From Novosphingobium sp. 28-62-57 (GTDB lineage Bacteria; Pseudomonadota; Alphaproteobacteria; Sphingomonadales; Sphingomonadaceae): a DNA stretch of 64,000 nt. The position numbers and the translations under genes were made by a program. The notes under the pieces are model-generated. The model was not told the DNA's origin and did not search any database. It saw only the letters and a program-made list of their open reading frames with translations. Positions 4,011-50,662 of the stretch are shown piece by piece; the first letter of the stretch is position 1; the number at the start of each line of letters is the position of its first letter. The stretch is from positions 1 to 64,000 of the forward strand of contig NCGO01000012.1 of the NCBI GenBank assembly GCA_002256985.1, in the 5' to 3' direction.

Positions 4011-4014
4011 GGTT

Positions 4015-4875: not shown

Positions 4876-4876
4876 A

Positions 4877-7173: not shown

Positions 7174-7253
7174 GGCGGTGTCCTTTTCTGCAAGCGGGAG
7201 GCACGGGCTTGCCTGCTAGCGATGGCTCGCCGCAGGCTTGGCCCGTCGCAGGT

Positions 7254-12509: not shown

Positions 12510-12691
12510 CGCGATAGTGCTCCGTGATTGCCGACGGCATGCCGGTTGCAGCCTGACTCTGGCTGGAAATGGTTGCTGTAGCAAGGCATTGCGGCTGGCA
12601 AAACAATGGCCGCAAAGACTCTGGCCTAAGCTTGCAAAACGTTTCAGGTATGGGGCTTCCGGGGGTGTGGATCAGACGGGGGCAAGGGGAT

Positions 12692-15619
12692 ATGTCGAAG
12701 ATCATCTGGGCAGCGGCGGTTTTGGCACTTATGCCAAACGCCTGTCTTGCCGCCGAACCGGAAAAGCCGGTGGCAGGCGTTCCCAGTTTGGCAGATGAGG
12801 TCAAGGCGCTGAAATCGGCTGATACGGCGGGCAAACCGGCCGAGGCGCTGGCGATGATCGACGCGGTGCTGGCGCGGGCGCGCAAGGCGAAGGGCATCGA
12901 TAGGCTCGACGTGATCTATGCCGAGGCGAGCCGGGCCAATGCGCTGTTCTGGCTGGACCGATACGATGAAGCGCTGGGCATCTATCATGGCCTTGAAGCC
13001 GAACTGGAGCGGGGCCAGTATCCGATGACGCCGGACCGGGCCGAACTGGTCAACAACATCGGCTCGCTCTATTCCTCGCTTGGCAAGCTGGACGAGGCAA
13101 CGCGCTATAAGCTGCGCGCGCTGACGCTGACGGAGCAGACGGCGGGCAAGGAAAGCATTGAATATGCCTCGGCGCTCTATGGTCTTGCGCTGATTGAATT
13201 CCGGCGCGGAGAGCCGCTGCAAGCGATGCCGCGGGTGCGCGAGGCGCTGCGGCTGGCGCGGGCGCATGCCACGCAATCGGGCAACGATCTGGAACAACCT
13301 GCCATCTTCGGGCTGAGCCTTGCGGCGCTGCTGATTCAGGCAGGCGATCCGGCCTCGTCTATCGGCCCGGCGCGCGAGGCGGCGGTGTGGGCGGAAACGA
13401 AGCTGGGCGAAGACCACCGTGTGACCATGGCGGCGCTGAGCCAGCTGGGCGCTTCGCTCAACGATTCAGGGCTTTATGGCCAAGCTATTCCGGTGATCCG
13501 GCGGACGCTAGATCTGCGGGCAAAGGCCTATCCGGAGGGACACCCGGACATCGCCTTTTCGCTCAGCGCGCTTGGCTTTGCGCTCGACAATTCGGGGCAC
13601 AAGGAGGAGGCACTGCCGTTTTATGAACGGGCGGCGGAGATCTTTGAGAAGAGCACCATCCGCAACAACCCCACGATTGCCGCCACCGCGATTGGCCAGT
13701 TGGCAAGGCTGGCGGCGTGGCGCGGCGACAAGGCGGGATCGCTGGTCCTGCGCGAGAAAGCGCTGCGTATCGGCCGGGAGCGTGCGACTTCGCCCGAGCA
13801 TCCTGACGTGATCTTTGCCGAAGTGAACCTTGCGCGCGAATACATCGGTGACAGGCGGTTTGACGAGGCTTTGCCACTGCTTTCCCATGCCAATGCGGCC
13901 TTCAAGGACCGCGCGCTCGATTCAAACGCCCGGCGGCTTGGCGGGTTGATCTTTGCCGAAGTTGTCGCGTCGGAAAAGGGCGATCATGCCGGCGCGATGG
14001 CGCGTTCGCGCGCGATTCTGGCCCCAGCGCGGGCACGGCTGCTGGATCGCGCCACGCCGCGTGCCGAAGTATCGCGGCTGGCAGAGCAGTATCATGGACT
14101 GTTTGTGCAGCATGCTCGCCTCGCCATGGCGGCAGGCGATGCGGCGCAGGCGTTTGAGGCGTTGCAGCTTGCCAATCTGGGCGATTTGCAAAGCGCGATG
14201 TCGAGCCTGGGTCTGCTGCGCACGGCGGACAGCCCCGAGGCGACCGAGGCGATCCGCCGCTATCAGGCGCTGGCCACCGATGGCGCGCGGTTGCGGCGCA
14301 CGCTCAATGCGCAAGTGGCCGCGGGCAAGGGCGATGGCGCGGACGAGATCAATCGCCAGCTTGCCGACATTGATGCCAAGTTGCGAGAGGAAGACGCGCG
14401 GCTTGCGGTGCTGATCCCCGGTTATTCGGTGCAGACAGCGGTGGAACCGGCAAGTCTTGCGGCCGCGCAAGCGGGCCTGGCCAAGGCGCAGGCGCTGATC
14501 CTTTATGGTCAGGACGAAGAGGGACTGGTGGTGCTGGCGGTGACGCCGGACACGGCGGTAGCGGCGACCACGGCCATTGCCCCACGACCGCTGCTCAATC
14601 TGCAAAAGCGCCTGCGTGGATCGATTGAAAGCGGGCTTCAAACCAATGGCAAAGCGGCCTTTGATCGTTCGGCGGCGTATGAATTGTATCTGGCGCTGTT
14701 TCCGCAGCCAATCCGCGAGGCGGTGAATACAGCGTCTGATCTGCGCATTCTGGCAACCGGGAGCCTTGCCGCGCTGCCTTTTTCGGCGCTGATCACGCAG
14801 GCACCGCAGGGGGATGATGATGCCGCAGACGCGCTGCGGCGCACGCGCTGGCTGGCCATGACACATGCAGTGTCGGTCCCGCTTGCAGCGGTGCCGCTGA
14901 CTGAGGGGCCACGTGGCAAAAAGGCGCGCAGTTTTGCTGGCATCGGCGCGCCTGTGCTGGGCGAACCGGTGCGACTGGCCACGCGCAATGCCAGCTTGCT
15001 TCGCTCGGGCGATACCAGCACCCGGGCCTTGCGCGAGCTGGCCAGCCTGCCCGGCGCGGCGGATGAATTGCGCAGCATGGCCAGCGCCTTTCCCGGGCAA
15101 TCGGCGCTGCTGATTGGCACGGATGCCACGGAGACGGCGGTGAAGGCCGCGCCGCTGCAGCAGGCCAGCGTGATTGCCTTTGCGACCCATGGGCTGGTGG
15201 GCGGGGCATTCCGCGATCTGGTGGAGCCTGCGCTGGTGCTGACCCCGCCCGATCAGGCGAGCGAGGGTGATGATGGGCTGCTGACGGCTTCGGAAATTGC
15301 CAAGCTGCGGCTTGATGCCGATTGGGTGATCCTTTCGGCCTGCGATACCAGTGCCGGAGACGGGGAAAGCGCGCCGACGTTTTCAGGGCTGGCCCGGTCG
15401 TTCATCGCGGCGGGCGCACGGTCGTTGCTGCTGTCACACTGGCCGGTGCGCGATGATGTGGCCAGCCGTCTGACACTCGATACGCTGAACGGGGCAGGGC
15501 GCGGATTGTCTCAGGCCGAGGCGCTGCGGCGGGCCCAGCTTGCCATTATTCGTGACCGCAAGCTCGCCGGGGCGGCGCATCCTGCCACCTGGGCACCGTT
15601 CGTGCTGGTGGGAAACTGA
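12692..15619 (+). CDS. Exported TPR-CHAT (caspase-like) protein
   Basis: A 975-residue protein started at ATG 12692 (AAGGGGA ribosome-binding site), opening a signal peptide MSKIIWAAAVLALMPNACLAA. Residues about 30-560 form tetratricopeptide-type helical repeats (for example LVNNIGSLYSSLGKLDEATRY, FSLSALGFALDNSGHKEEA). The C-terminal about 350 residues are a CHAT domain, a clan-CD caspase/separase-like fold. The expected His-Cys dyad is present: H833 in IAFATHGLVGG and C884 in VILSACDTSAGDG, followed by FIAAGARSLLLSHWPV. CHAT proteins are peptidases or peptidase-like scaffolds, and some act in defence, but this one is predicted to be exported. No obvious substrate or partner is encoded next to it. 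Confidence 0.88.
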   Translation: MSKIIWAAAVLALMPNACLAAEPEKPVAGVPSLADEVKALKSADTAGKPAEALAMIDAVLARARKAKGIDRLDVIYAEASRANALFWLDRYDEALGIYHGLEAELERGQYPMTPDRAELVNNIGSLYSSLGKLDEATRYKLRALTLTEQTAGKESIEYASALYGLALIEFRRGEPLQAMPRVREALRLARAHATQSGNDLEQPAIFGLSLAALLIQAGDPASSIGPAREAAVWAETKLGEDHRVTMAALSQLGASLNDSGLYGQAIPVIRRTLDLRAKAYPEGHPDIAFSLSALGFALDNSGHKEEALPFYERAAEIFEKSTIRNNPTIAATAIGQLARLAAWRGDKAGSLVLREKALRIGRERATSPEHPDVIFAEVNLAREYIGDRRFDEALPLLSHANAAFKDRALDSNARRLGGLIFAEVVASEKGDHAGAMARSRAILAPARARLLDRATPRAEVSRLAEQYHGLFVQHARLAMAAGDAAQAFEALQLANLGDLQSAMSSLGLLRTADSPEATEAIRRYQALATDGARLRRTLNAQVAAGKGDGADEINRQLADIDAKLREEDARLAVLIPGYSVQTAVEPASLAAAQAGLAKAQALILYGQDEEGLVVLAVTPDTAVAATTAIAPRPLLNLQKRLRGSIESGLQTNGKAAFDRSAAYELYLALFPQPIREAVNTASDLRILATGSLAALPFSALITQAPQGDDDAADALRRTRWLAMTHAVSVPLAAVPLTEGPRGKKARSFAGIGAPVLGEPVRLATRNASLLRSGDTSTRALRELASLPGAADELRSMASAFPGQSALLIGTDATETAVKAAPLQQASVIAFATHGLVGGAFRDLVEPALVLTPPDQASEGDDGLLTASEIAKLRLDADWVILSACDTSAGDGESAPTFSGLARSFIAAGARSLLLSHWPVRDDVASRLTLDTLNGAGRGLSQAEALRRAQLAIIRDRKLAGAAHPATWAPFVLVGN

Positions 15620-15640
15620 AGGGGCAAATCGCCGCTTCAG
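15616..15640. terminator. Bidirectional hairpin between convergent genes
   Basis: CTGAAG (15616-15621) pairs with CTTCAG (15635-15640) and an inner GGC/GCC pairs across an AAATC loop, with one internal G-G mismatch. It spans the stop codons of the CHAT gene (plus) and accA (minus), the usual place for a shared transcription end. There is no long U-run, so efficiency is uncertain. Confidence 0.4.
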
Positions 15641-16566
15641 AGTTCGCCAAGCTGCATGAAGAAGTTCCAGCGTTCGTTGCGCAACTCGTCAGCGCCGAGA
15701 GGGACCAGATCGTCCAGTTCGCTGCGCAGCGCCGTGCCGAGGCGGCGGATCGTTTCGGCGTGGTTGCGGTGTGCGCCGCCGACCGGTTCGTAAACAATGC
15801 GGTGGATGACGCCGAGTTGGAGCAGGTCGGAGGCGGTCATCTTCATCGCTTCGGCGGCATCGGGCGCACGTTCTGAACCGCGCCACAGGATCGAAGCGCA
15901 GCCTTCGGGTGAGATGACCGAATAGACTGCGTGTTCGAGCATTAGCACGCGGTTGGCCGCCGCCAGCGCCACTGCGCCGCCAGAACCGCCTTCGCCCACG
16001 ATCACCGCAATCAGCGGCACGCCCAGCGACAGGCACTTTTCGGTGCTGCGCGCGATGGCTTCGGCCTGCCCGCGCGCTTCGGCATCGACGCCGGGGAAGG
16101 CGCCCGGCGTATCGACCAATGTGATCACCGGCAGGCCGAAGCGGTCTGCCAGATCCATCAGCCGCATCGCCTTGCGATAGCCTTCGGGCCGGGCCATGCC
16201 GAAATTGTGGCGAAGGCGCGATGCGGTATCCTCGCCCTTGGCATGGCCGATGACGACGACCCGGCGTCCGCCCATTTGCGCAAAGCCGCCGATGATCGCC
16301 TGATCGTTGCCAAAGGTGCGGTCTCCACCCAAGGGCATGAAGTGATCGAACAGGCCTTCGACATAGTGCGCAAAGTGCGGGCGCGCCGGGTGCCGCGCCA
16401 CCTGCGTGCGCTGCCACGGGGTGAGACGGGCGTAGATATCGCCAAGCTGGCGATGCGCCCGCTCATCCAGCATGGCCGCCTCGGCTTCGCTCCCGCCGGA
16501 TTCACGCAGGGTGGCCGCGCTGCGGGTCAGCGCCTCTATCGGCTTTTCGAACGAGAGGTATTCCAT
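15637..16566 (-). CDS. accA: Acetyl-CoA carboxylase carboxyltransferase subunit alpha
   Basis: A 309-residue AccA, close to the usual about 315. With AccD it transfers CO2 from biotin-BCCP to acetyl-CoA, giving malonyl-CoA. Signatures: an N-terminal helical region (EALTRSAATLRESGGSE), FGMARPEGYRKAMRLMDLA, the PVITLVDTPGAFPGVDAE oxyanion/CoA motif, VIVGEGGSGGAVALAA and VYSVISPEGCASILWRG. It starts 13 bp after the stop of mcr, so it very probably shares the pcs-mcr transcript and supplies malonyl-CoA for Mcr. Whether it is also the housekeeping fatty-acid subunit depends on whether the genome holds another accA. AccB, AccC and AccD are not next to it. Confidence 0.95.
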   Translation of the reverse strand: MEYLSFEKPIEALTRSAATLRESGGSEAEAAMLDERAHRQLGDIYARLTPWQRTQVARHPARPHFAHYVEGLFDHFMPLGGDRTFGNDQAIIGGFAQMGGRRVVVIGHAKGEDTASRLRHNFGMARPEGYRKAMRLMDLADRFGLPVITLVDTPGAFPGVDAEARGQAEAIARSTEKCLSLGVPLIAVIVGEGGSGGAVALAAANRVLMLEHAVYSVISPEGCASILWRGSERAPDAAEAMKMTASDLLQLGVIHRIVYEPVGGAHRNHAETIRRLGTALRSELDDLVPLGADELRNERWNFFMQLGEL

Positions 16567-16579
16567 CAGGTGCCCATCT

Positions 16580-19500
16580 CTACACTGTCATCGACATGCC
16601 GCGATAGATGCGCGCGCGATAGCGGGAATCTTCGGCATCAGGCAGCGGCGTGCCGACCAGCAGGACCGCGCGGGCAAAGCGCTTCACCTCTTCCAGATGC
16701 TCGTCCAGGTCGCGCGGTTCTTCGGACCGGACGCGGCGGGTGAGGTTGATCTGGTTGACCGGGGCACCGTGGACCAGCCGCTCGTTCTCTACCGCCAAGG
16801 TGGCGGTGAAGGCGTGGAGCGTGGTCTTGATGAAGTTGGCCAGCGCAAAGGCCGGGCTCTTGTCGCCCATCGGCACATCGGGGGTGACCAGCACCAGCTG
16901 GCAATCGTCATAGAGCGAGGCCTTGCGCGATACGCGGAAGTGCGTGGTGAGATTATCGGCGACCAGTTGGCGGAACTCTTCAGGGCTCAGCAGGGCATCG
17001 GTGGCAAAGAGCTTGGTCGGCAGCGCCTGCAGCGGGGTGGAGACGATGGTCGTGGGGTGGCCCCATTGCACCAGCGCGCTGTCCATTGCGGCTTCGACAC
17101 CGCCATCGAGCAGCGCCATTTCCAGTGGTGCACCTTCAATGTCGGATAGCGCTTCCTTCAGCGCGGCAAACCCGGCCTCGGTGCTGGTCATGAAGACGAC
17201 GCGCGCCACGTGGCATTCGCTGATGAATTCGCGCGCGGTTTCGGCAAGGTAATCGGTCAAGTGTTCGCCGATGATCCACACGGTGCGCCCGCGCATCTGA
17301 TCGAGCCGCTCCTGCTTGGGGCTGCCGAACAGTTCGCGCTCGGTGGTGGAGCGTTCAACGCTGAGGCCGCCTGAGGGCATGAAGGTTTCGCCGCTGACCG
17401 CGCGGTCGGCAAGGAAGAACACGGTGGCCTGCGCCACGTCGGTCTCGGTCGGCATCTTGCCCAGCAACAGTTGCGAGAGCACGCCGGTGCCCACTTTCGC
17501 AGCCTCGTTGGCAATCTTTTCGGCGGGGAGGAACGGCGCGTCTTCGGGCGGGGTCTTGAGCAGCCAGTTGCCGTTGTCTTCGGGCGTATTGGGCCGCGCT
17601 GCCCATTCGGGGGAATCGAGGAAATAGCCCGCGTTGCGCAAGCGGCAGACCAGCTTTGCCGCGATATCGGGCGTCATCAGATAGCGGTCCCAGGTGCACA
17701 GGCCATCACCCTCACGCGCGCAGGCCAAGGCCAATTCACGCAATTCGCGCGGGTTGTTGGTATCGTGCGACATGCGCACGGTATCGTTGCGCGACAGGCG
17801 GCTGAGTAGCGCCTCGACCCGTACGCCGCGCCGCAGCGATTTGACGGCGGCGGCGTGGACCGCGTTGAGGCGCTTGTTGGCCAGGATGAGTTTGCCGCGC
17901 CGTTCGAACAGGCCGGGCTTGCCGCCTGTGCCTGCCAGACGGTCGCCATCGACGGGGCCGGGAGCGATAGCGTTGAATTGCACTTCGGGGCCCAGATAGC
18001 GGGACATCGATTCCACCATCGCGCGCTGGCCGGATTTGGACACGGCATAATCGGCGCGGTTGGGATAGGCGACGGCGAGGTTCTTTTGCCCGCCGAAATA
18101 GGACGAGACGTTGAGCACATAGCCCGATCCTTGGGCCTTCATCAGCGGCACGACGTGGTGCATCAGCACGAAGTTGGAGATCAGGTTGGCATCGAGCGTG
18201 TAGTTCCACGCATCCACGCTCATGTCGACGACCATCTCTTCAGCGCCCGCCACGCCTGCGTTGTTGATCAGGTAGTCGATCCGGCCGAAGGCCTTCATCG
18301 TGGCGTCAACGGCAGCCTTGAGGCTGTCGAGGTTGCTCACGTCCATGCCGGACATGGTCTGCACGCGGCGTTCGACCCCGGCAAAGCCGATGTCCTCCAG
18401 TTCGCTGACGATGCGCGCGCGCGCCACGGCCAGTTCGCTTTCGCGCCGGGCGACCATCATCACTTTGGCCCCGGCAAGGGCCAGCAGCCGCGCGACCTGG
18501 CCGCCGATGCCTGCCGAACCGCCGGTGATCAGCGCGACTTTGCCCAGATGCAGGCCGGTGATGTTCTCGCTGAACCCCGCCATCGCCTTGCGTGCACCGG
18601 TCGCCTCGCCAATGTTGCGCGGCACATAGAGGGTGACTTCGCCGATCTTGCTTTCCTTGATCAGCACACGTGCAGCATGGCCTGCAGCAAAGCGGGTGTT
18701 TTCAGCTTCGGCATTGGTGAAGCGGACGATCTGGTTGCCCCATTCCACCTGTCCGCGCCGCCCGTGCGCCACATCAATCTCGGATTCATCGCGCCACACG
18801 CGCACCAGTTGTTCAATCGCGGCGCGCAGCACGTTGGCATAGACGTTGTCCTTGCCGTCGCTGGCGTTGGACATGAAGATGAAGCGCGGGGCCTGCAGCA
18901 GCGCGCCGTGCCGCTTCCAGTAGCGGCTGAGCGTGCGGGCCAATGCCATCGCGCCGACCAGTTCGACATCCATGAATGCTTCGATGTCTTCGTCGGTGGC
19001 ATCGACCAGTTTTCCGGTGAATTCGCCCGGACCGTTGACCGGCAAGAAGATCGCACCGGTGATGGGCGCGTTGCTCTCGGTATAAGTCGCCAGCGCAGCT
19101 TCGATGGTGGCAGGTTCGCTGCGGTTGAAACGCACGATAGTGAGCGCATCGCCGATGGCTTCGGCCTTGGCTCGGGCTTGGGCGATGGCAACATCGGCTT
19201 GACGCGGCAGGCCGAGCAGCACCGATGCCCCGCAGGCGATCTGGATCTTGGCGATTTCCAGCGCCTCTTCCCAGCCATCGCCCGCCGCGATCAGCACGGC
19301 AAGGCCCGCGCCGTCCATCGACCGCATGGTGGGGCGGGCGAGGTAGGTTGCACGCTCTTCCTTGCGCACGGTCATGCCGTGGGTCACTTCGAAATCGTGG
19401 CCGTTGTAGGCGGCGGATTCATCGCTGCCGAGGAACACGCAGGTCTTGGCGATGTCATCGGGTACGGGGAAGGTCTTGGCCTTAGGCGCACCGCTGGTGC

Positions 19501-20293
19501 TGCGTTCGAGCGACATCATGTCGAAGAAGGTATTGGCGGTGGTGCCCGCTTCATCACCGCGCATCTTGTCCATTGTGGCAAATACGGTGCGGATACGCTC
19601 GCTCTCAATCGGGCCGGGGAAGACGAGATTGACGCGGATGCCCTTGGGGCCAAGTTCGAGCGACAATTCGCGCGACCACGCATTCATCGCCGCCTTGGGC
19701 ACGACATAGGCTGCGCGGGCGAAATAGGGGGTGCGCGAGAAGATCGTCGAGACGTTGATGATCGATCCGCCTTCGCCCATCACGCCAGCCGCGGTGCGGG
19801 CAAGGTTCCATGCCACGCCGAAGATGTTGCGCATGGCATCGGCGACGGTTTCGGTATCGGTCGAGCCCTTTTTCTGCAGCGCGGCGAGTTCATCGGCGCT
19901 GAAGGGAAGCTGCTCAATCGGCTGCTTGGGACCGGCAGAGCCAGCGTTGTTGACGAGGATATCGATCTTGCCGAAACGCTTTGCCACATCGGCAATACCA
20001 TCGCGCACCGATTGCGGATCGCCGCCATCGAGCACCACGGTGGCAAGGCGGCTGGCATCGACGCCGCTGGCTTCGCGCATGGCGGCAGCGGCAGCTTCGA
20101 GCCGTTCGGAGGTGCGCCCGGTCATCACCACGGTTGCGCCTTCGGCCAGATAGTGGCGCACGATATAGCCGCCGAGATTGCCTGCCGCACCGGTTACGAG
20201 CGCGATTTTGCCTGCCAGCCTGCCGGTGGCGGTGCTGATGGCCGAATCACCGGGCTTGGAATCGACAGTTGTGCTGGTCTTTGCCTTGGCCAT
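16580..20293 (-). CDS. mcr: Bifunctional malonyl-CoA reductase (malonyl-CoA to 3-hydroxypropionate)
   Basis: A 1237-residue protein (Chloroflexus aurantiacus Mcr is about 1220) started at ATG 20293 after GGGAGAG. It contains two short-chain-dehydrogenase halves. The N-terminal half has TGAAGNLG at 34-41, ILVNNAGSAGP and the catalytic Y-V-V-P-K. The C-terminal half has ALITGGSAGIGGQ, YLINNAGVAG, NVSSYFGGQ and Y-A-V-S-K. In the Chloroflexus enzyme the C half reduces malonyl-CoA to malonate semialdehyde and the N half reduces that to 3-hydroxypropionate with NADPH. Collinear Chloroflexus-like motifs run to the end (PTRLFATDALL-type region, ANFIKTTLHAFTATL, final RIYRGMSMTV), so it looks full length and intact. 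It follows pcs by 163 bp and precedes accA by 13 bp. Confidence 0.96.
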   Translation of the reverse strand: MAKAKTSTTVDSKPGDSAISTATGRLAGKIALVTGAAGNLGGYIVRHYLAEGATVVMTGRTSERLEAAAAAMREASGVDASRLATVVLDGGDPQSVRDGIADVAKRFGKIDILVNNAGSAGPKQPIEQLPFSADELAALQKKGSTDTETVADAMRNIFGVAWNLARTAAGVMGEGGSIINVSTIFSRTPYFARAAYVVPKAAMNAWSRELSLELGPKGIRVNLVFPGPIESERIRTVFATMDKMRGDEAGTTANTFFDMMSLERSTSGAPKAKTFPVPDDIAKTCVFLGSDESAAYNGHDFEVTHGMTVRKEERATYLARPTMRSMDGAGLAVLIAAGDGWEEALEIAKIQIACGASVLLGLPRQADVAIAQARAKAEAIGDALTIVRFNRSEPATIEAALATYTESNAPITGAIFLPVNGPGEFTGKLVDATDEDIEAFMDVELVGAMALARTLSRYWKRHGALLQAPRFIFMSNASDGKDNVYANVLRAAIEQLVRVWRDESEIDVAHGRRGQVEWGNQIVRFTNAEAENTRFAAGHAARVLIKESKIGEVTLYVPRNIGEATGARKAMAGFSENITGLHLGKVALITGGSAGIGGQVARLLALAGAKVMMVARRESELAVARARIVSELEDIGFAGVERRVQTMSGMDVSNLDSLKAAVDATMKAFGRIDYLINNAGVAGAEEMVVDMSVDAWNYTLDANLISNFVLMHHVVPLMKAQGSGYVLNVSSYFGGQKNLAVAYPNRADYAVSKSGQRAMVESMSRYLGPEVQFNAIAPGPVDGDRLAGTGGKPGLFERRGKLILANKRLNAVHAAAVKSLRRGVRVEALLSRLSRNDTVRMSHDTNNPRELRELALACAREGDGLCTWDRYLMTPDIAAKLVCRLRNAGYFLDSPEWAARPNTPEDNGNWLLKTPPEDAPFLPAEKIANEAAKVGTGVLSQLLLGKMPTETDVAQATVFFLADRAVSGETFMPSGGLSVERSTTERELFGSPKQERLDQMRGRTVWIIGEHLTDYLAETAREFISECHVARVVFMTSTEAGFAALKEALSDIEGAPLEMALLDGGVEAAMDSALVQWGHPTTIVSTPLQALPTKLFATDALLSPEEFRQLVADNLTTHFRVSRKASLYDDCQLVLVTPDVPMGDKSPAFALANFIKTTLHAFTATLAVENERLVHGAPVNQINLTRRVRSEEPRDLDEHLEEVKRFARAVLLVGTPLPDAEDSRYRARIYRGMSMTV

Positions 20294-20456
20294 GTCACTC
20301 TCCCACACATGCGCTGCAAGCGATGTTGCGCGCTTTTTCAATATTATGCCTGGGGAGGACAGCTTTGTAGCAAAGTGAACAGACGCCCGATGTTTGAGCC
20401 GGGTCGATCAATTCTTTGATGTTCGCCGTTTCCGGGCCATTTTGTCAAGCATGCAC

Positions 20457-23400
20457 TTACGTGTCGGATTCCTGTGTCACCGCCCACGCTTCCAGCAGCG
20501 CATCGCGGCTGCGCAGGCCCATGGCGGGCAGGGCGTGGTTGACGACATAGGTCGAGCCGGAATGGCGGTTGTCCCACATCGCTTGATGCGCCTCTGGCAG
20601 GCCTTCCCACGGCACAACCTCAGGCTCGGTCACTTCGAGCAGGCCCGCTGCGATCATGTCGTTCATGCGCGAAACTTCATAGGCATTGCACAAGTGCGTG
20701 CCTAGGATCGAGGCGGTCGGCATGAGGATCTTGCGCTGGCGGGTCCAGACTTGCGGCGCATAGAACGTAAAGCGCCCGCCGGTCAGGTCTTCGGAGAAGA
20801 CGACGCGGCCGGTGAACGGCTTCACCAGCGAGGTCGAGACGCCGAGCGTGTCCTGCCCCATGCGTTCGAACACGAGATCGGGGCTGCCGCGCGGATTGTC
20901 GGGCGAGCGCAGGATTTTGCCGACGGCTGCGCCGAACGGCTTCATCACGCGGTCTTGATAGTCGCGCACCGCCGCCTTGAAGACTTCGATATCGGCCTTG
21001 GCATCGGGAAGGCGCGGCATGGTATCGGGCCAGAGGAAGTTATCGCCCTCGCGCCGCCGGATCGCTTCAAGGCTGACGATGCCCTCGATGGCGTCTTCGA
21101 GGCCCAGCGATTGTAGGAATTCGCGCTGGCCGTCGGTGGTGGTGGCGACCACGCTGCGCGCGTTGAAGCGGCGGGCGGCTTCGATGATTTCTAGGCCCAT
21201 GTCGTCGAGCAGGTCGGTGGAGCCGGGGCCGTAGTAGATCAGCACCGCCTCGCCGCCGCGCAGCGCGGCGCGGCGCAGCATCTTTTCGGGGCTGGCCGCG
21301 CCGGACTTGCCCATGAAGCTGAAGTGATAGCCTGATGACGCGCCATAGAACGCCAAGGTGCCGTTTTCGGCGAGGAGCTGGAAGCTGCGCGGGAAGGCGG
21401 TCTCGCCCGCGTGGCTGACGACATAGTCGGCCAGCTTGCCGCCGTTGAGCGTCTTGTATTCTTCGATCAGCGGAGCGCCGGCGGCTTCCCAAGCGCGGGC
21501 CTCGGCGGCGTCTTCGGGAACCGTGGTGTAGAGATCGGCGAAGCGCGGGTCCTTGCGGTTGATCGCGCCGACGGCGCCTTGCTGGCCGGTGATGAACGCG
21601 GCGCGGTCCGGGCTGGAGACGAGGCCGGTGACTTGCAGGCCGGTGCGCACCGAGGAGCGCAGTGCGTCTAGCCCGGTGCCAGTGGCCGCGCCTTCGACGA
21701 ACAGCGTGCGGCCCGGGGCAATCTGCAGCGTTGTGAACAGGCAGCGCGAGATCGTGCCGAGATTGAGCACGTAGCTGCCCGCCTGTTCCAGCGTCAGGTT
21801 CGGCGGCACCGCGTGCATCTGCGGGGCCTGCACGGTGAGGAACTGCGCGTGGCTGCCCGTCTCCGTCTCGTAGCCCTGGATCGAGAAGCCCGCGTACATC
21901 GGATCGTTGCCGACTTGCGGGGACAGCAGATCGTTGGTGCCCGAATAGACCGTGACGAGATCGCCGACCTTTACGCGGCCATTGGCGCGGGTCTCGCTGC
22001 CGAGCGCGGCGACGAGCGCGATGCCGCCCGAACCGGTGATCTGGACGTCCTCTTCATGGGCATCGAACGGCGAGACCGGAATGCCCGTCAGCCCCCAGAT
22101 ATCGTTGAAGTTGACCTCGCTGGTGAGCATGTAGAGCAGCGCTTCGTTGGGCGCAGGCTCGGGCACTTTGACGATCAACTCGCGTTCGTGCGTGGCGGGC
22201 TGGCCAAACCGGGGCGCACCCGTATCGGGATCGCGCGCGATGCCGAAGGCGTACTGCCATTCCGGAATCGCGGTGACGCCGGGATAGAACGGCGCGCCGA
22301 CCGGGAGCAGATCGCCGCTGGCCTCAAGGGCCGCTCCGCGCGTCTCATGCTCGCTGTCGATCCACAGACCGTCGCGCCGCACCGGAAGCGGCGGGCTGAC
22401 TTTGTCCAAGAACTGGCGGATGCCGGTCTTGCCGCCTTCGGGATCGATGATCGCCTCGGCAAACAGCGCTGCCTCGCGCGCGAGGCCTGCAGCCATGCCC
22501 TGCGTCAGGCCCGTGCGCACCGCATCGAGCGCGCGTTCACCGGCCTTGCCGCGACCGGCCCAATCTAGCTGGCGGAGAATGCGCTGGAGGAAATCGTCCT
22601 GCATCACGCTGTCGAGATCGACCGTGGCGGGCTGTTCCCAGCTCTGCGTGGCGGCCTCGCGCGCGGCGAAGGCTTTGCCCAGTGTACTGGCCTCGCCATG
22701 CTTCACCCACTCGCGCACCAGCGCGTGGGCCTCGGCGAGCGCATCGTGGCTGCCATCGGCAAGCGCATCGACGAGGCCGATATCGGCGGCAGCGGCGGCA
22801 TCGATGCTGCGTCCGCCAAGGATCAGGTCGAGTGCATCGCGCAAGCCAGTTTCGCCGTGCCGGTCTGCCAGAAGGCGCGGCAGGCGCTGCGTGCCGCCGT
22901 AGCCGGGCAGCAGGCGCAGGCGGATTTCGGGCTGGCCGAAGCGCGCGGTGGGCTCCGCCACGCGGTAGTGGCAGGCGAGGGCGAATTCCATGCCGCCGCC
23001 GAGTGCCACGCCTTGCACCGCCGCGATGCATGGCTTGCCCATCGTTTCGATCTTGCGGAACGCGAGCTGCGCGTTGTTGGGCAGGACGAGCGCTTCTTCG
23101 TGGGAATGGATTTCCTCCAGCATCTGCCGGATATCCGCGCCCGCGACGAAGGATGACGTGCCTTGCCCGGTGAACACCACCGCGACGACATCGTCCTTGC
23201 GCGCCAGATGCTCGACCACGATCACCAGTTCGTCGATCGCGCGTTCGTTCAGCGCGTTGACCGGGGCGTTGGTGACGGTGACGGTTGCGACGCGCTTGCC
23301 GGGGGCTCCAATGGAATCCAGCGCATTGTATTGAATGAGGAAATAGCGGTAGCGCTCGAACAGCGATTGCTCTTCGGAGAGGCGCTGCTGGCGCTGCCAC

Positions 23401-25955
23401 GCGTCAATCGCGGTCTTTAGTTCGACAAGGCTTTCGGGGTTGCGCAAGGTAGTAACGTCACCCAGCTCGCCGCCCTCAACCAGCGCGCGGACCATGCGGC
23501 GCATGTATTTGCCCGAGCGGGTTTCGGGGAACTGGCTGACCTCGATAAAGTCTGCCGGAACCGCGACTGCGCCCTTTTCGGTGCGGACGAGATTGAACAG
23601 CCGCTGGCGGTCCTCCTCGGTGAGCTTGCGGCCAGCGACGGGCACCACGAAGGCGAGGGGGGTGAGCCCTTTTTCGCGGTGCGGCGCGCCGACGACGAGC
23701 ACATTGCCGACCGGTGAATCCGGATCGAGCGTCTTGTCGCGCAGCACTGCGCCTTCGATTTCCTCGGTGCCCATGCGGTGGCCCGAGACGTTGATCACAT
23801 CATCGCTGCGGCCATGGAACGAGAACGAGCCATCGTCATGCGCAATGGCGAAATCGCCCTGCGTATAGGCCCATGCGCCCTGCCAGCGGCCCCAATAGCC
23901 GCTTTCCCAGCGCCCGGCATCGCCCGTCCAGCCGCCAACCACGCTGCCGTTTTCGACGCGGAAATTCTCGACATCGCCCCAGATCGTGCGCGCGAGATAG
24001 GGGTAGGGGGCGGCGATGACGACTTCGCCCTTTTCGCCCGGCTCGGCGCGGCGCCAGGTGACGCCTTCGCTGCCGGTGCGGGCAAACTGCGCGGTGCCGG
24101 GGGTGGCATCCTCGTCTTCCACCCAGACCTCGCCGACAATCCACGGCAGCGGGAAGGCGTGGGCATCGGCCTTCAAGGGGAAATCGGCGTTGCCGTAGAA
24201 ATGGGTCCAGGCAATGCCGCCGTGCTCGGTCGCCCAGTAGCTGTTGATGTATTGCGGGGTCACGTGCTCCATGCCGAAGGCCTGCACGCTGGGGCTGGTC
24301 GGCTCGGCGCAGAATGTGGCGACGCGCAGGCTGCTCATGTCGTAGCGCTGAACATCCGCGAGGTTCGAGGGATCGGACATGATCGATTTCAGGAAGGTCA
24401 CGCCTGCCTTGAAGATCGTGATCTTGTGCCGCTCGATCATCGAAGCGAAGCGGCCCGCGTGGGGGAATACGGGGGAGCCTTCGAACACGACCGTGGTGAC
24501 GCGCGAGAGCAGTGCTGCGGAGATCTGATAGCTCTGCCCGGTGATCCAGCCCGGATCGGCCACGACAAAGATCGTGTCGCCCGGCCGCGCATCGAACGCG
24601 ACCTGCATCGATTGCGCGATGCCTGCGGTATAGCCGCCGTGGACGTGAACAATGCCCTTCGGCTTGCCGGTGGAGCCGGAGGTGTAGATGAAGAACAGCG
24701 GATAATCGGAATCGACCGGCAGCGGCTTTGATGAAGCCCAGATGGCGCGCACGAAATCGGCGTCCGGCAGCGCCAGCAGAGCTGCTTCGCTGGCCACATC
24801 GGCCTTGGCGAGGATCGTTTCCAGCGCCGCATCGGTGAGCTCGTGGCTCCAGCGGTCGCGCTCTTCGCGCCACACGATATCGGGCTGCGCGGTGTGGCGC
24901 ACCACGATTACGGTATCGACGCGCGGCGGAAGGGTGACGAGGCTGGAGGCGATGGCAAGGCGCACCCGCGCGGCATCACTGGATGCGATACGGCCCGCTT
25001 CGCCCAGTTTGATCAGCGCACGGCCCACGCCGCGCATCACATCGGAGCGTTCGACGGTGACTTCACCCGCCAGCGTTTCGGCCACGGTTTCGTTGATTAC
25101 GGCAGCATCGGCGGGATCAAGCCCCAAGTCGATTCCGGCCAATACGGTTAGCGCGGTGGAGACCGGCACATAGTTGTCGAGCGCGGGATCGGTGTAGGCG
25201 GTCTTGAACGCGGCGACTTGCGCGCTGCGGTAGCTACCATCTGACGTGACGATCACGCGCGCGCCAGCGTCGGCAATGCGGTCTGACAGCGTCTTGTCGC
25301 TGAAGCCCCCGAACACCGCCGTGTAGACAATGCCAAGGCGCTTGGCCGCTTCGGACCAGAAAATCTGCGGCACGATGCTTGGCATGTTCAGCGCGATGCG
25401 ATCACCTGCCTTGAGGCCAAGGCCTTCGAGCGCGACGGCGCACTTGGCGACTTCGAGCAGCATCCGCTTGCGCGAGACGGAGAAGGTATCGACCGGCGCG
25501 CCGCGCCCGCCGTCTGCCGCCATGTCCCAGCGGTCGCCCTCGAAGATCAGCGCGGCTTCATCGCCGTGGCCGGCCAGCACGTGGCGGTCGATCTCGTTGA
25601 ATGCGGCATTGGTGCGTCCGCCGGTGAACCAGCGCCAGTGCGGCGGGTTGGAGGCGTCAAACGCAGTGGTCCACGGTGCGAAGTCTGCCGGGACATCGGC
25701 GGTAACGGGCGCGCCGGTTATGGCATCCCAGCCGGACCATGTGCCAGCACTATCGCGGGTCAGCCATGCGCCTGCCGTGCCTTGGTCGGCGACGAACCAG
25801 TGTATGCGCTCTGCCGCGATGTTCGCGTGGAACGCTCCGGGGTTTTCAAGCACGGCGGCCCGCATCGCTGCCCAATCGGCGCGCGTGCGAACGGGGTTTA
25901 CGCTGGCGACAGGTGTTGCGCCACGTGCTGCTGTGGACAGGCCAGCTGCTGCCAT
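20457..25955 (-). CDS. pcs: Trifunctional propionyl-CoA synthase (3-hydroxypropionate to propionyl-CoA)
   Basis: A 1832-residue multidomain enzyme (Chloroflexus Pcs is about 1822). Domain 1, acyl-CoA synthetase (about 1-860): the AMP-binding P-loop FFIYTSGSTGKPKGIVHVHGG, GRSDDVINVSGHRMG and catalytic K816 in TRSGKYMRR. Domain 2, enoyl-CoA hydratase (about 880-1200): GTSSFVAGADIRQ, GVALGGGMEFALACHY and FGQPEIRLRLLPGYGGTQ, with both crotonase glutamates present. Domain 3, an MDR-type enoyl-CoA reductase (about 1270-1832): NEALLYMLTSEVNFNDIWG and LFVEGAATGTG. It activates 3-hydroxypropionate to its CoA ester, dehydrates it to acryloyl-CoA and reduces that to propionyl-CoA inside one protein. ATG 25955 has a GGGAGGG ribosome-binding site. 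Homologues are known in Erythrobacter-type sphingomonads. Confidence 0.96.
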   Translation of the reverse strand: MAAAGLSTAARGATPVASVNPVRTRADWAAMRAAVLENPGAFHANIAAERIHWFVADQGTAGAWLTRDSAGTWSGWDAITGAPVTADVPADFAPWTTAFDASNPPHWRWFTGGRTNAAFNEIDRHVLAGHGDEAALIFEGDRWDMAADGGRGAPVDTFSVSRKRMLLEVAKCAVALEGLGLKAGDRIALNMPSIVPQIFWSEAAKRLGIVYTAVFGGFSDKTLSDRIADAGARVIVTSDGSYRSAQVAAFKTAYTDPALDNYVPVSTALTVLAGIDLGLDPADAAVINETVAETLAGEVTVERSDVMRGVGRALIKLGEAGRIASSDAARVRLAIASSLVTLPPRVDTVIVVRHTAQPDIVWREERDRWSHELTDAALETILAKADVASEAALLALPDADFVRAIWASSKPLPVDSDYPLFFIYTSGSTGKPKGIVHVHGGYTAGIAQSMQVAFDARPGDTIFVVADPGWITGQSYQISAALLSRVTTVVFEGSPVFPHAGRFASMIERHKITIFKAGVTFLKSIMSDPSNLADVQRYDMSSLRVATFCAEPTSPSVQAFGMEHVTPQYINSYWATEHGGIAWTHFYGNADFPLKADAHAFPLPWIVGEVWVEDEDATPGTAQFARTGSEGVTWRRAEPGEKGEVVIAAPYPYLARTIWGDVENFRVENGSVVGGWTGDAGRWESGYWGRWQGAWAYTQGDFAIAHDDGSFSFHGRSDDVINVSGHRMGTEEIEGAVLRDKTLDPDSPVGNVLVVGAPHREKGLTPLAFVVPVAGRKLTEEDRQRLFNLVRTEKGAVAVPADFIEVSQFPETRSGKYMRRMVRALVEGGELGDVTTLRNPESLVELKTAIDAWQRQQRLSEEQSLFERYRYFLIQYNALDSIGAPGKRVATVTVTNAPVNALNERAIDELVIVVEHLARKDDVVAVVFTGQGTSSFVAGADIRQMLEEIHSHEEALVLPNNAQLAFRKIETMGKPCIAAVQGVALGGGMEFALACHYRVAEPTARFGQPEIRLRLLPGYGGTQRLPRLLADRHGETGLRDALDLILGGRSIDAAAAADIGLVDALADGSHDALAEAHALVREWVKHGEASTLGKAFAAREAATQSWEQPATVDLDSVMQDDFLQRILRQLDWAGRGKAGERALDAVRTGLTQGMAAGLAREAALFAEAIIDPEGGKTGIRQFLDKVSPPLPVRRDGLWIDSEHETRGAALEASGDLLPVGAPFYPGVTAIPEWQYAFGIARDPDTGAPRFGQPATHERELIVKVPEPAPNEALLYMLTSEVNFNDIWGLTGIPVSPFDAHEEDVQITGSGGIALVAALGSETRANGRVKVGDLVTVYSGTNDLLSPQVGNDPMYAGFSIQGYETETGSHAQFLTVQAPQMHAVPPNLTLEQAGSYVLNLGTISRCLFTTLQIAPGRTLFVEGAATGTGLDALRSSVRTGLQVTGLVSSPDRAAFITGQQGAVGAINRKDPRFADLYTTVPEDAAEARAWEAAGAPLIEEYKTLNGGKLADYVVSHAGETAFPRSFQLLAENGTLAFYGASSGYHFSFMGKSGAASPEKMLRRAALRGGEAVLIYYGPGSTDLLDDMGLEIIEAARRFNARSVVATTTDGQREFLQSLGLEDAIEGIVSLEAIRRREGDNFLWPDTMPRLPDAKADIEVFKAAVRDYQDRVMKPFGAAVGKILRSPDNPRGSPDLVFERMGQDTLGVSTSLVKPFTGRVVFSEDLTGGRFTFYAPQVWTRQRKILMPTASILGTHLCNAYEVSRMNDMIAAGLLEVTEPEVVPWEGLPEAHQAMWDNRHSGSTYVVNHALPAMGLRSRDALLEAWAVTQESDT

Positions 25956-26117
25956 CGAATCGCCCTCCCTGTGTTTTTATTTCGGGGAGTGAGCCTGAAC
26001 AATTCGGTCTTGGCAATACGCCCGTGGGACAAGCTTTCTGGCAATTCATGTTAGGAAGGCGCGGCTGTTGGGCCGGTTTTCCTTGTTTTCCTTTGTCTGC
26101 AACGTCTAGGACAGGCT

Positions 26118-26177: not shown

Positions 26178-29027
26178 ATGGCACTCCAACTGACCCTTTA
26201 TCTGCTTGTGTTGCTCCCTTTCTTTGCCGCTTTGCTGATCGCAATGGTCAGTGCAAAGGGTTTGGCTTGGCATAGCGGTCTGGCTGCTGCGGGCAGTGCA
26301 GTCGGGCTTGTTATCGTGCTGGTCTTGGCCGGGCGCGTGCTTGATGGCGAGGTGTTGGCGGTATCGGCACCTTGGGTGCCTGCGCTAGGGCTTGATTTTG
26401 CGCTGATGCTCGATCCGCTGGGGCTGCTGTTTGCCCTGATGATCCTTGGCATCGGTTTGCTGGTGGTAATCTTCGGGCACTTTTACCTTGCCCCGACCGA
26501 GGCGACGGGGCGGTTCTTTGCCAGCCTGATGCTGTTTCAGGGGGCGATGCTGGGCATTGTCATTTCCGGCAACATCCTGCTTCTGCTGGTGTTCTGGGAA
26601 CTGACCAGTCTGTCATCGTTCCTGCTGATCGGCTTTTGGAAGCACAAGGCCGAGGCGCGGCAGGGCGCGCGCATGGCGCTGGCGGTGACGGGCGGCGGCG
26701 GGCTGGTGCTGATTGCGGGCATGGTGCTGCTGGGCACGCTGGCCGGATCGTTTGATCTGATGACCATTTTGCAGCGCGGTGATCTTGTGCAGGCGTCAGC
26801 GCTTTATCCGGTGATGCTGATCCTGATTCTGATTGGCTGCTTCACCAAGTCGGCGCAGTTTCCGTTCCATTTCTGGTTGCCGCACGCGATGGCTGCGCCA
26901 ACGCCGGTGAGTGCTTATCTGCATTCGGCCACGATGGTGAAGGCGGGCGTGTTCCTGCTGGCGCGGCTGTGGCCGGTGCTTTCGGGGACCGAGCTATATA
27001 CCATCATCGTCAGCGGGACTGGGCTTATCACCATGTTGTTCGGCGCTTGGGTGGCATTGTTCCGGCATGATCTGAAGAGCATTCTGGCCTATTCCACGAT
27101 CAGCCAGCTGGGCCTGCTGGTGATGCTGCTGGGCTTTTCGATCAAGCTGGCGGCTGTCGGCGCGGTGCTGCACATCATCAATCACGCCGCGTTCAAGGCG
27201 GCGCTGTTCATGTCGGCGGGGATTGTCGATCACGAAACGGGCACGCGCGATATCCGCAAGTTGGGCGGGCTTGTCAAAGCCATGCCGATCACGGCGCTGG
27301 TTGCCACCTTGGCCGCAGCGTCGATGGCAGGACTTCCGCCCTTTGGGGGCTTCATTTCGAAAGAGATGATGCTGGACGAAACGCTGCATATCGCCCTGTT
27401 CGGGCTGCCATGGCTGGTGCCGTTGGTAGCAACGGTGGCGGCCACCTTGTCGGTCGCCTATTCGCTGCGGTTTGCGATTCACCTGTTCTTCGGCGAGCCG
27501 CGCGATGTGCAGGTTCATGCCAAAGCGCATGATCCGGGGGCGGGCATGTGGGCATCGCCAGCGTTTCTGGTGGTGCTGGCGGTGCTGCTGGGCCTGATCC
27601 CGATGGCGCTGGCAGGGCCGCTCGTTTCCGCTGCGGCAGGTGCGGTGCTGGGCGAGGTGGCACCGCCGCTGGGGCTGGCGTTGTGGCATGGGATCAACCC
27701 GGCGCTGGGAATGAGCGTGGCTGCTGTAGTGGCCGGCACACTGCTGCTGTGGCAACACGCACCGCTGCTGCGCGCTTATCAGAGCGTGCGCCACCTTGAT
27801 GCCAAGGTCCTGTTCGAACGCGTGATGGCGTTTGCCGACAAGCGTGTGCGCAAGTTGATCGTGGCGCTGCACAGGCCATCGCTGCAACGCATGTTGCTTG
27901 CCGCCTTCGCGGTGGTTGTTGCGCTGTTTATCGAAGGAGCAATGGACGGTGGCGGAAGCCTGACCGGTCCGCGCGTCGGCCAACCCGCTTCGGTGGTGGC
28001 AGTGATCGCTTGGGGGCTGCTGATCGCGGCCACGATTGCGGTGGTGCTGGCCCAGCGCCAGCGGTTTCTGGTGCTGGTCTATGTCAGCGTGATCGGCTTG
28101 GTCATCGCTTTGGCGTTCGTCCACCTTTCGGCCCCCGATCTGGCTTTGACGCAGATTTCGGTCGAGGTGGTCACGATCCTGCTGCTGTTGCTGGCGCTGA
28201 ACCTCCTGCCCAAGACGCCGCCGCAATTGTCGAGCAAGGGCAGGCGTTTGCGCGATGGCATGCTGGCGTTGGCAGGTGGATTGGGCGTGGGCGGCGCGGC
28301 CTGGGCGATGCTGACGCGCAATGCCAATGATCCGATATCGGCCTATCACATCGCCAACAGCTACACCGGCGGAGGCGGGACCAATATCGTCAACGTCACG
28401 CTGGTCGATTTCCGCGGCTTTGACACGCTTGGCGAGATTATCGTGCTGGGGATTGCGGGCCTTGCCATCTATGCCCTGCTCGATACGGCAACGCGGGGTG
28501 CAGCCGGGGCGCGGCTGGGAACGTGGCAGGAGGACATGCCGCATTCGCCCGAACGCCACCCGGTGATGTTCGTAATGGCCACGCGCATCCTGCTGCCGCT
28601 GGTGCTGGCGGTGGGGATCTACATCTTCCTGCGCGGCCATAACGAGCCTGGCGGCGGCTTCATCGCGGCACTGGTGATCGCGATTGCGTTCCTGCTGCAA
28701 TATCTGGCCTCAGGCTTTGACTGGACCGATGCGCGCCGCAAGGTGGGGGAGCATTTGCTGATCGGGTCCGGGGTTCTGGTGGCGCTGGCAACGGGGCTGG
28801 GATCACTGGTGTTCGGTGCCAATTTCCTGACCAGTGCGTTCGGCTATTTCGATATTCCGCTTGTGGGCGAGGTGGAACTGGCAACTGCCATGCTGTTTGA
28901 CATCGGCGTGCTGGCGGTGGTGTTTGGTGCGGTCATGATGGCGCTGGCGCAGCTTAGCCAGATTGCCCAACGGGCTGCGCGCGCCCATGCTGCCAGCCTT
29001 GCCGCGCAGCAGGAGGAGGGCCAATGA
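26178..29027 (+). CDS. mrpA: Mrp/Pha cation:proton antiporter subunit A fused to subunit B
   Basis: A 949-residue membrane protein. Residues about 1-770 are a NuoL-like MrpA proton channel with many helices and the conserved block [31 protein letters not shown], plus the MrpA-specific C-terminal helices ([20 protein letters not shown]). Residues about 790-940 are an MrpB/MnhB domain ([25 protein letters not shown]). The A-B fusion is typical of alphaproteobacterial Pha systems. With subunits C-G it forms a multi-subunit Na+(K+)/H+ antiporter used for pH and ion homeostasis. It is the first gene of the operon; mrpC overlaps its stop (ATGA). Confidence 0.95.
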
Positions 29028-29404
29028 CCCTCGAATTTCTGGTCGCCAGCGCCATTGGCGTTTTGGTGGCGGGCGGCATCTATCTTTCGCTGCGGGCGCG
29101 GACGTTTCAGGTTGTACTGGGGCTTACGCTGTTTTCCTATGCGGTGAACCTGTTCCTCTTTGCGTCCGGGCGCTTGACGATTGATCGTCCGCCAATCCTG
29201 CAAAAGGGTGTTACCGACTATGCCGATCCTTTGCCGCAGGCGCTTGTCCTGACGGCCATCGTGATCACTTTCGGGATGACGGCGCTGGCAGTGGTGCTCT
29301 CTCTGCGCAGCTTTCTGGAAACCGGCAGCGATCAGGTTGATGGCAACGAATGTGCTGGCGATCAGGATGATTGCTCAGACGTGACCGCAGAGCCGCACGG
29401 ATGA
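29024..29404 (+). CDS. mrpC: Mrp antiporter subunit C (NuoK-like)
   Basis: A 126-residue NuoK-like subunit with three transmembrane helices: FLVASAIGVLVAGGIYLSL, VVLGLTLFSYAVNLFLFA (with the conserved G-L-x-L-x-x-x-x-x-N-L element) and LVLTAIVITFGMTALAVVLS. The ILQKGVTDYADPLPQALVLTAI segment is highly typical of MrpC. The polar C-terminal tail is Asp/Glu/Cys-rich. It overlaps mrpA and mrpD by ATGA junctions. Confidence 0.93.
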   Translation: MTLEFLVASAIGVLVAGGIYLSLRARTFQVVLGLTLFSYAVNLFLFASGRLTIDRPPILQKGVTDYADPLPQALVLTAIVITFGMTALAVVLSLRSFLETGSDQVDGNECAGDQDDCSDVTAEPHG

Positions 29405-30918
29405 GTGCTGCATCGCACCTGGCCATCGCGCCCATCGTGATCCCCGCACTAGCGGCACCGATTGCGCTGCTGGTCATGCGCCGAAGGCGGTGGCTGGGCG
29501 TCGGCATCGGTTTTGCGTCCTGTCTGGCAATGCTGGCTGCGGCGTTAATTCTGCTCGTTGCTGCCGGGGACGGCACGATCCGCACATATGAATTGGGTGA
29601 ATGGCCTGCGCCGTTCGGCATTGTGCTGGTGGTTGACCGGCTTTCGGCCATCATGCTGACTTTGGCGGCCAGTCTGTCGCTGATTGCCCTAACCCACGCA
29701 GTTATCACGCGGGCCGACCGCAAGGGCTGGCACTTTCACTCGCTGTTCCAGTTTCAGATGATGGGCCTGAACGGCGCATTCCTGACCGGCGACTTGTTCA
29801 ACCTCTTCGTGTTTTTCGAAGTGCTGCTGATCGCCTCTTATGGTCTGATGCTGCACGGGCAGGGGCCTGCGCGGCTGAAGGCGGGTGTGCAGTATGTGAT
29901 CGTCAATATCGTCGGCTCTTCGCTGTTCCTGATTGCGCTCGGCCTGCTCTATGCGTTGACGGGCACGCTCAACATGGCGGACATGGGCCTGCGGGTGGCA
30001 GCGATTGCGCCCGATGATCAGAGTCTGTTGCGCGTTGCGGCGCTGCTGCTGTCCAGTGTCTTTGCGCTGAAAGCGGCGATTGTGCCGCTGCACCTTTGGT
30101 TGCCGCGCACGTATGCGGTTTCCTCGCCAGCGGTTGCGGCGCTGTTTGCGATCATGACCAAAGTGGGCGTCTATGCTATGATCCGCGTGATCCCGCAAGT
30201 CTTTGGCGATGACGCAGGCGCTGCGGCGTGGGTGCCTGCGCCCTATCTGCTGCCTGCCGCGATAGTGACCGCCATTGTGGGCTTTGCCGGGGTGTTCGTG
30301 GCCCGCGAACTGTCGGAACAGGCGGCATATGCCGTGATCGGGTCCACCGGCACCCTGATGATCGCCGTGGCCGGATGGCAGCAGGACACGCTGGGCGCTG
30401 CAATTTATTACCTCGTCCATTCGACCTTTGCCGGGGCGGCGCTGTTTCTGGTGGCCGATATCGTGGCCCGCCGCCGCGCGAGCTATGCGGACCGGGCCGT
30501 GCCCGGGCCCATGTTCCAGCAAAGGCAATTGCTTGCCCTGCTGTTCATGGGTGCGGCCATCGCGGCGACGGGCTTGCCGCCGCTGTCGGGCTTTATTGGC
30601 AAGCTGTTGATCCTGCGCTCTGTCACCGATGTGGCGGGCTGGGGTTGGGCATGGGGTGCGATTTTGGGCACGACCCTGATCGGTGTGATCGGCTTTGCCC
30701 GCACGGGTAGCGCGATTTTCTGGAAGGAAGCAGAGGCTTCTGCCGGTTACCAGCCGCCGCCTGTTTCGAGCGCCGATCTGACCGCGCCGATCATGGCGTT
30801 GGCGCTGCTTGCTGGCCTGTCTGCCGGAGCGGGGCCGGTTACCGATTATGGCACGGCAGCAGCAGAGCAGGTGCTTGATCGTGCCGCCACCGCCCGCGCC
30901 GTTCTGGGAGGACGCTGA
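29401..30918 (+). CDS. mrpD: Mrp antiporter subunit D (NuoM/N-like)
   Basis: A 505-residue NuoN-like proton-translocating subunit. ATG 29401 overlaps the mrpC stop and is preferred to an upstream in-frame start that would overlap mrpC further. Motifs: FQMMGLNGAFLTGDLFNLFVFFEVLLIASYGL, KAAIVPLHLWLPRTYAVSSPAVAALF and LPPLSGFIGKLLIL. It has about 14 hydrophobic segments. It partners MrpA in ion translocation. Confidence 0.95.
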   Translation: MSAASHLAIAPIVIPALAAPIALLVMRRRRWLGVGIGFASCLAMLAAALILLVAAGDGTIRTYELGEWPAPFGIVLVVDRLSAIMLTLAASLSLIALTHAVITRADRKGWHFHSLFQFQMMGLNGAFLTGDLFNLFVFFEVLLIASYGLMLHGQGPARLKAGVQYVIVNIVGSSLFLIALGLLYALTGTLNMADMGLRVAAIAPDDQSLLRVAALLLSSVFALKAAIVPLHLWLPRTYAVSSPAVAALFAIMTKVGVYAMIRVIPQVFGDDAGAAAWVPAPYLLPAAIVTAIVGFAGVFVARELSEQAAYAVIGSTGTLMIAVAGWQQDTLGAAIYYLVHSTFAGAALFLVADIVARRRASYADRAVPGPMFQQRQLLALLFMGAAIAATGLPPLSGFIGKLLILRSVTDVAGWGWAWGAILGTTLIGVIGFARTGSAIFWKEAEASAGYQPPPVSSADLTAPIMALALLAGLSAGAGPVTDYGTAAAEQVLDRAATARAVLGGR

Positions 30919-30919
30919 C

Positions 30920-46635: not shown

Positions 46636-46666
46636 ATTCCAAGATGATTTTTCCAGCAGGTAGACC

Positions 46667-47854: not shown

Positions 47855-47900
47855 GCAGGCTCGACAATTCACGGCCCCCGGCGCGGGCGGAGAAACCGAC

Positions 47901-50635: not shown

Positions 50636-50662
50636 GTATCGAATTCACTGGAGAAGTTTCCA

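Follow-up and report, generated by a model that had tools for sequence, protein, structure and literature searches.

The carboxylation of acetyl-CoA and the reactions of malonyl-CoA reductase (Mcr) and propionyl-CoA synthase (Pcs) form the first arm of the 3-hydroxypropionate bi-cycle of Chloroflexus aurantiacus, in which accA-accD (Caur_1647-1648), mcr (Caur_2614) and pcs (Caur_0613) are scattered and a second cycle is present (PMC3150298). In Roseiflexus RS-1, the genes for acetyl-CoA carboxylase, Mcr and Pcs form an apparent operon (RoseRS_3199-3203), whose transcripts rise by day (PMC5459899). Mcr and Pcs have also been cited for Alpha- and Gammaproteobacteria (PMC9802188), and in Porphyrobacter ULC335 the 3-hydroxypropionate bicycle genes are up by day, with co-assimilation proposed (PMC10674011). 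Here we analyse a pcs-mcr-accA cassette in a 64,000-nucleotide stretch of Novosphingobium sp. 28-62-57 (contig NCGO01000012.1, positions 1 to 64,000), hereafter the window, which is contig 4 of a 4.10-Mb genome of 39 contigs rated 100% complete. With a probability of roughly 0.72, we propose that this cassette would turn acetyl-CoA and bicarbonate into propionyl-CoA in a reaction-centre-encoding bacterium, for CO2 co-assimilation.

The locus resembles each of these systems in part. It shares the first-arm reactions with Chloroflexus, but its three genes are clustered and the second-cycle hydratase of the host is only partly matched. Like Roseiflexus RS-1 it brings carboxylase, Mcr and Pcs genes together, and the Roseiflexus operon is thus a precedent for carboxylase-gene linkage to mcr and pcs; that organism, however, belongs to another phylum and has a complete bi-cycle, and its operon spans five locus tags, whereas our host links accA only, and the likeness is one of description, the subunits not being stated in the part of PMC5459899 available. 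Bacteria of the Erythrobacter NAP1/Porphyrobacter type have the same fused Mcr and Pcs and the same co-assimilation reading (PMC10674011), but the cassette of our host has a second accA. A literature search, which lay outside most subscription papers, found no report of accA tied to pcs-mcr in Alphaproteobacteria in the available text of PMC3150298 and PMC5459899, and one may yet be in print. This is not a new pathway, as the enzymes are known from relatives; the linked second accA is what the comparison adds.

The cassette encodes full-length Pcs, Mcr and AccA

The three genes lie on the minus strand in the order pcs (20457..25955, 1832 amino acids (aa)), mcr (16580..20293, 1237 aa) and the cassette accA, here called accA2 (15637..16566, 309 aa), with 163 nucleotides (nt) between the pcs stop and the mcr ATG and 13 nt between the mcr stop and accA2. 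In the open reading frame (ORF) list of the window all three frames run without interruption. Against nine genus relatives, the ratio of nonsynonymous to synonymous substitution rates (dN/dS) was 0.07-0.15 for pcs (partial in G130) and 0.08-0.22 for accA2, and against eight of the nine it was 0.08-0.18 for mcr, G165 being left out for a stop upstream. The trio is confirmed as full-length, co-directional and kept by purifying selection. The ORF list opens mcr with a TTG (16580-20341, 1253 aa), yet the ATG at 20293 appears better placed than the TTG at 20341, because GGGAGAG precedes this ATG in our own sequence and GGAGAGTGACATGGCCAAGGCAAAG shows no variation in an alignment of seven loci.

Pcs combines ligase, crotonase (hydratase) and MDR reductase parts in a single chain, with the Pfam domains AMP-binding, ECH_1 and ADH_zinc_N, and matches PDB 6eqo with 2940 bits over residues 28-1831. 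Mcr consists of two fused SDR halves, the architecture of a bifunctional malonyl-CoA reductase, and is homologous over its full length to characterised Mcr: it matches 6k8s with 1250 bits in a structure-sequence search, also matches 6k8v, reaches 1118 bits against 8hi4 over residues 39-1253, and shares 48% of the 891-892 aligned residues with the chains of 8hi4 and 8hjw. Reading the translations, we found YTSGSTGKPKG and GKYMRR in the ligase part of Pcs, GGGMEFA and FGQPEI in its hydratase part, and YVVPK and YAVSK, one in each SDR half of Mcr; these we take to be key residues of their domains. The best solved relatives, 6eqo and 6k8s/6k8v, are presumably enzymes of Erythrobacter NAP1/Porphyrobacter-type relatives. 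An earlier note on this DNA, made from the letters alone, had named the three genes as complete, and families, PDB matches and key residues bear it out; gene identity and integrity are far beyond chance.

Both Mcr and Pcs have close homologues of known structure, so it can safely be inferred that a route from acetyl-CoA and bicarbonate through malonyl-CoA and 3-hydroxypropionate to propionyl-CoA is encoded, in the direction which the note had proposed. In the first step, AccA2 together with a shared AccD and the cell's AccB and AccC would form malonyl-CoA. By homology to characterised relatives, Mcr would then turn malonyl-CoA into 3-hydroxypropionate, which Pcs would activate, dehydrate and reduce to propionyl-CoA. 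Mcr would consume two NADPH, and Pcs would consume ATP and one NADPH.

accA is linked to mcr across the genus

True Mcr, whole or partial, is found in 18 of 195 genus genomes (78-92% identity) and in 39 of 397 sampled family genomes (our own included), spanning 13 of 96 genera; family-level kin thus carry the same genes. Within the genus, accA is the gene directly behind mcr in 17 of the 18 genomes that have Mcr, two of these loci being cut by a contig end, and the tie between accA and mcr suggested earlier is a conserved one; in the eighteenth genome, G180, the contig holds part of mcr only. The gap between mcr and accA ranges from about -4 to 63 nt across loci. We compared family loci from 29 of the 38 other Mcr genomes with 1.5-kb flanks: an accA match follows mcr in 8, and in the other 21 (loci that are not assigned to Erythrobacter or Porphyrobacter) the 1.5 kb behind mcr contain none. 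Two layouts, pcs-mcr and pcs-mcr-accA, therefore exist in the family.

Aerophototrophica crusticola, which belongs to another family, has pcs, mcr and accA at 70-78% identity, while a gammaproteobacterial metagenome-assembled genome has pcs-mcr and no accA match within its 23.7 kb. These two (L055 and L054) were the full-length Mcr loci among 80 listed in a scan of named genomes by generic dehydrogenase patterns, which was not used for the distribution counts. A search of 72,556 plasmid records gave no Mcr match.

The arrangement bears on whether Pcs could instead serve to assimilate or detoxify environmental 3-hydroxypropionate, or acrylate use, with Mcr and AccA2 secondary. Pcs-type enzymes do take 3-hydroxypropionate as a substrate, and that of Erythrobacter NAP1 has supplied a ligase domain used to activate it in vitro (PMC11599936). 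We nevertheless consider this quite unlikely, as a fused full-length Mcr adjoins pcs, with pcs ahead of it, at 16 of the 18 loci of the genus and 28 of the 29 from the family, and as a scavenger would have no need of an AccA2 carboxylation step ahead of Mcr. The remaining loci are contig ends (G180 and L159) or a piece in which the mcr start is not covered (G135).

AccA2 is an inherited member of the cassette

AccA2 scores 372.8 bits against TIGR00513 (cut-off 319.3) and 431.1 bits against PRK05724 (cut-off 357), both equivalog models. It is the second copy in the genome (G000); the search for another accA which the earlier note had proposed finds one at G000:C1:700033-700986, and a housekeeping-type second accA is present in at least 14 of the 18 genus Mcr genomes. 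The two proteins belong to the same family, are of the same length and are about 66% identical. GEGGSGGA and ISPEGCASILW occur in 24/24 cassette and 14/14 housekeeping AccA, yet 14 positions differ in conservation between the two sets (at least 22 of 24 against at least 13 of 14).

A Carboxyl_trans search of the whole genome gave a single AccD-like match, a 283-aa ORF on C3 (L198:2019-2870), which we take to be AccD from its Pfam match. AccA2 would thus use the same AccD as the housekeeping AccA. Of the dedicated carboxylase supply envisaged earlier, the second accA in the cassette stands, but with AccD shared, a 'dedicated carboxylase' at this locus can mean only one subunit, alpha, at most.

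In the AccA tree, the 24 cassette AccA, which come from at least three genera and from Aerophototrophica, all fall on one side of a branch with 100/100 support, and the 14 genus housekeeping AccA fall on the other. This tree has a single distant outgroup, three long-branched rows including that outgroup, and housekeeping copies from the genus only. It points to one inherited cassette lineage, with origins inside and outside the genus housekeeping AccA both compatible with it. When accA presence was mapped on an Mcr tree of 47 loci and 2 outgroup chains (a quick method without bootstrap), it took 2 changes, 1 of them on starred branches, compared with 16 in shuffles. The Aerophototrophica cassette is placed among those of sphingomonads (support of 98 on one branch and 82-87 on others), which suggests that the cassette moved between families.

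That AccA2 is instead a recent redundant duplicate beside mcr in this lineage, with no special role, is very unlikely. Its family membership, its identity to the housekeeping copy and the shared core motifs would agree with a duplicate, and so would the outgroup-rooted tree, which draws the cassette clade within the genus housekeeping copies, although on unstarred branches. But AccA2 forms one clade with other genera and with a member of another family, is under purifying selection and stays beside mcr across the genus. By these comparisons, AccA2 is an inherited cassette member, not a fresh duplicate of this genome.

Fate of propionyl-CoA and purpose of the cassette

We examined the genes on which the use of propionyl-CoA would depend. 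A cluster on C23 comprises pccB, a thiolase, methylmalonyl-CoA epimerase (above cut-off), methylmalonyl-CoA mutase (mcm), an O-acetylhomoserine enzyme and pccA, whose pccA-like frame is open. The propionyl-CoA carboxylase and mutase genes for which the earlier note had advised a search are thus present as a cluster, but two of them are frame-broken in the assembly: compared with both G018 and G061, pccB lacks 35 bp (G000:C23:51933-53337, L145) and mcm lacks 61 bp (G000:C23:55213-56681, L145), each out of frame; the two deletions lie near 52.3 and 56.2 kb of C23. These lesions may be either local assembly errors or a true strain-level loss of the route to succinyl-CoA. We looked for the mutase in 27 genomes, 18 of which have Mcr and 9 of which do not; in our own alone, it is divided between two reading frames of a single contig. 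The match is uninterrupted and full-length in 12 of the 17 other Mcr genomes, partial or on two contigs in G184, G164 and G168, and lacking in the incomplete genomes G130 and G180.

The same note had pointed to mesaconyl-C1-CoA hydratase (mch), for which PF19315 gave no full-length match in the genome. Its one partial match (model positions 20-155 of 353, 53.2 bits, family cut-off 26.5) is a 152-aa MaoC-like protein adjoining a second acyl-CoA carboxylase, which stands on C1 with an acyl-CoA dehydrogenase and probably serves leucine degradation. Because mch is only partly matched and pccB and mcm are frame-broken, a closed bi-cycle in this host is unlikely. Since the cycle appears not to close, the purpose would not be autotrophy; most likely the cell would co-assimilate CO2 while growing on substrates that yield acetate, and the removal of NADPH would be a secondary gain. 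AccA2 would most likely provide a malonyl-CoA supply matched to Mcr and Pcs.

The module might also be thought to stand in for an absent glyoxylate shunt during acetate assimilation, a need that a propionyl-CoA route would fill. The genome, however, encodes a 531-aa isocitrate lyase on C9 (NF005074, an equivalog model, 1061.5 bits against a cut-off of 446), so the module is not a substitute for an absent lyase, and we rejected the idea for our own genome, where it is largely refuted and very improbable. The Pfam family of isocitrate lyase has matches, mostly partial, in 191 of 195 genus genomes, and only G165 and G179 among the Mcr genomes have none.

The host encodes pufL and pufM, with two full Photo_RC matches at G000:C3:142009-143672. 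Reaction-centre genes occur in 14 of the 18 genus Mcr genomes, our own included, against 21 of the 177 without Mcr (Fisher p 5e-9). We dropped this association as evidence of function, as the raw counts fail a phylogenetic pairing test, which used a 74-genome tree of housekeeping accA holding 14 of the 18 Mcr genomes and gave 1.7 pairs going the same way versus 0.4 the other way.

A redox sink, in which the module mainly burns NADPH in the light and propionyl-CoA is excreted or stored, would fit the reaction-centre genes and the apparent breaks in pccB and mcm. Yet the phototrophy link is not independent of ancestry, and the intact mutase match in the 12 other Mcr genomes indicates that propionyl-CoA is usable there; we hold this explanation to be unlikely, though to be taken seriously.

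Several observations weigh against the co-assimilation reading that we prefer. The broken pccB and mcm frames put the fate of propionyl-CoA in doubt, and AccA2 could act on another acyl-CoA. At the 21 family loci where the 1.5 kb behind mcr lack an accA match, Mcr and Pcs do not depend on accA. The rooted tree places the cassette AccA within the genus housekeeping copies, and a tree holding the housekeeping AccA together is not rejected (approximately unbiased test, p 0.348). Finally, Mcr and phototrophy share ancestry, the pairing test having 5 independent pairs and a median p of 1.

Carrying the co-assimilation reading further, we tentatively suggest, as an idea that is possible but more doubtful than the reading itself, that AccA2 and the housekeeping AccA compete for the single AccD. 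Two carboxylase isoforms would result, one for fatty acids and one feeding Mcr; co-assimilation would be switched by subunit exchange, and the cassette would be a transferable add-on for heterotrophic phototrophs. If AccA2 is dedicated, malonyl-CoA supply could be raised without upsetting lipid synthesis, malonyl-CoA being the fatty-acid precursor. The cassette would then be a natural example of how one gene can couple the carboxylation of acetyl-CoA with Mcr and Pcs, and would offer a genetically simple test of CO2 carbon gain in aerobic anoxygenic phototrophs.

Control elements and neighbouring genes

A conserved element, TTGCCA-N17-CTCNNT, lies about 60 nt upstream of pcs (25988..26016, minus strand) and has 1 match in the window against 0.09 expected. 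We scanned 10 of the 18 genus loci for TTGCCA-N17-CTC. One of them, G130, begins inside pcs; of the 9 that include sequence ahead of the gene, 8 have the element 49-61 nt from the pcs start, and G175 is without it. No further match occurs elsewhere in the 10 loci on either strand (454,092 bases), and the count is only descriptive, because these loci also served to define the pattern. A sigma-70 consensus scan gave no promoter-like site. The element only suggests a promoter and is listed as a candidate.

The pcs-mcr spacer has a conserved element of its own, GCTG(T/C)CCTCCCCAGGC (the GCTGYCCTCCCCAGGC element; 20348..20363, minus strand). It is found at our locus and 12 genus loci (13 in all). 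L148 and L149 have variant forms, and the element is absent from L018, L020, L021, L055 and the other family spacers read, some of them long. With this gap before mcr and the tight mcr-accA junction, a single transcript is putative. When the aligned spacers are folded together, this motif pairs with the ribosome site of mcr. An RNA structure hiding the mcr start was not adopted, as single folds disagree (z-scores -2.77 to +1.00); folding gives no support to a shared hairpin in the spacer, and at gathering thresholds no Rfam family matches the window.

A large TPR and CHAT-domain protein is convergent with accA2 (window 12569-15619, plus strand), and an MrpA-type monovalent cation/proton antiporter gene is divergent from pcs (26178-31405, plus strand); the ORFs after it, judged by their positions only, resemble the remainder of an Mrp operon. 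Chemotaxis genes for CheB, a methyl-accepting protein and a CheA-like kinase occupy 2943-9886 on the minus strand. The region 38818-58462 (plus strand) encodes a peptide ABC transporter, an ornithine cyclodeaminase-family protein (best NCBIfam BhcD, below cut-off), a D-serine dehydratase/alanine racemase-type protein, two aldehyde dehydrogenases, an FAD oxidoreductase, a tartrate dehydrogenase and a class III aminotransferase, and is perhaps a catabolic cluster for amino-acid-derived compounds.

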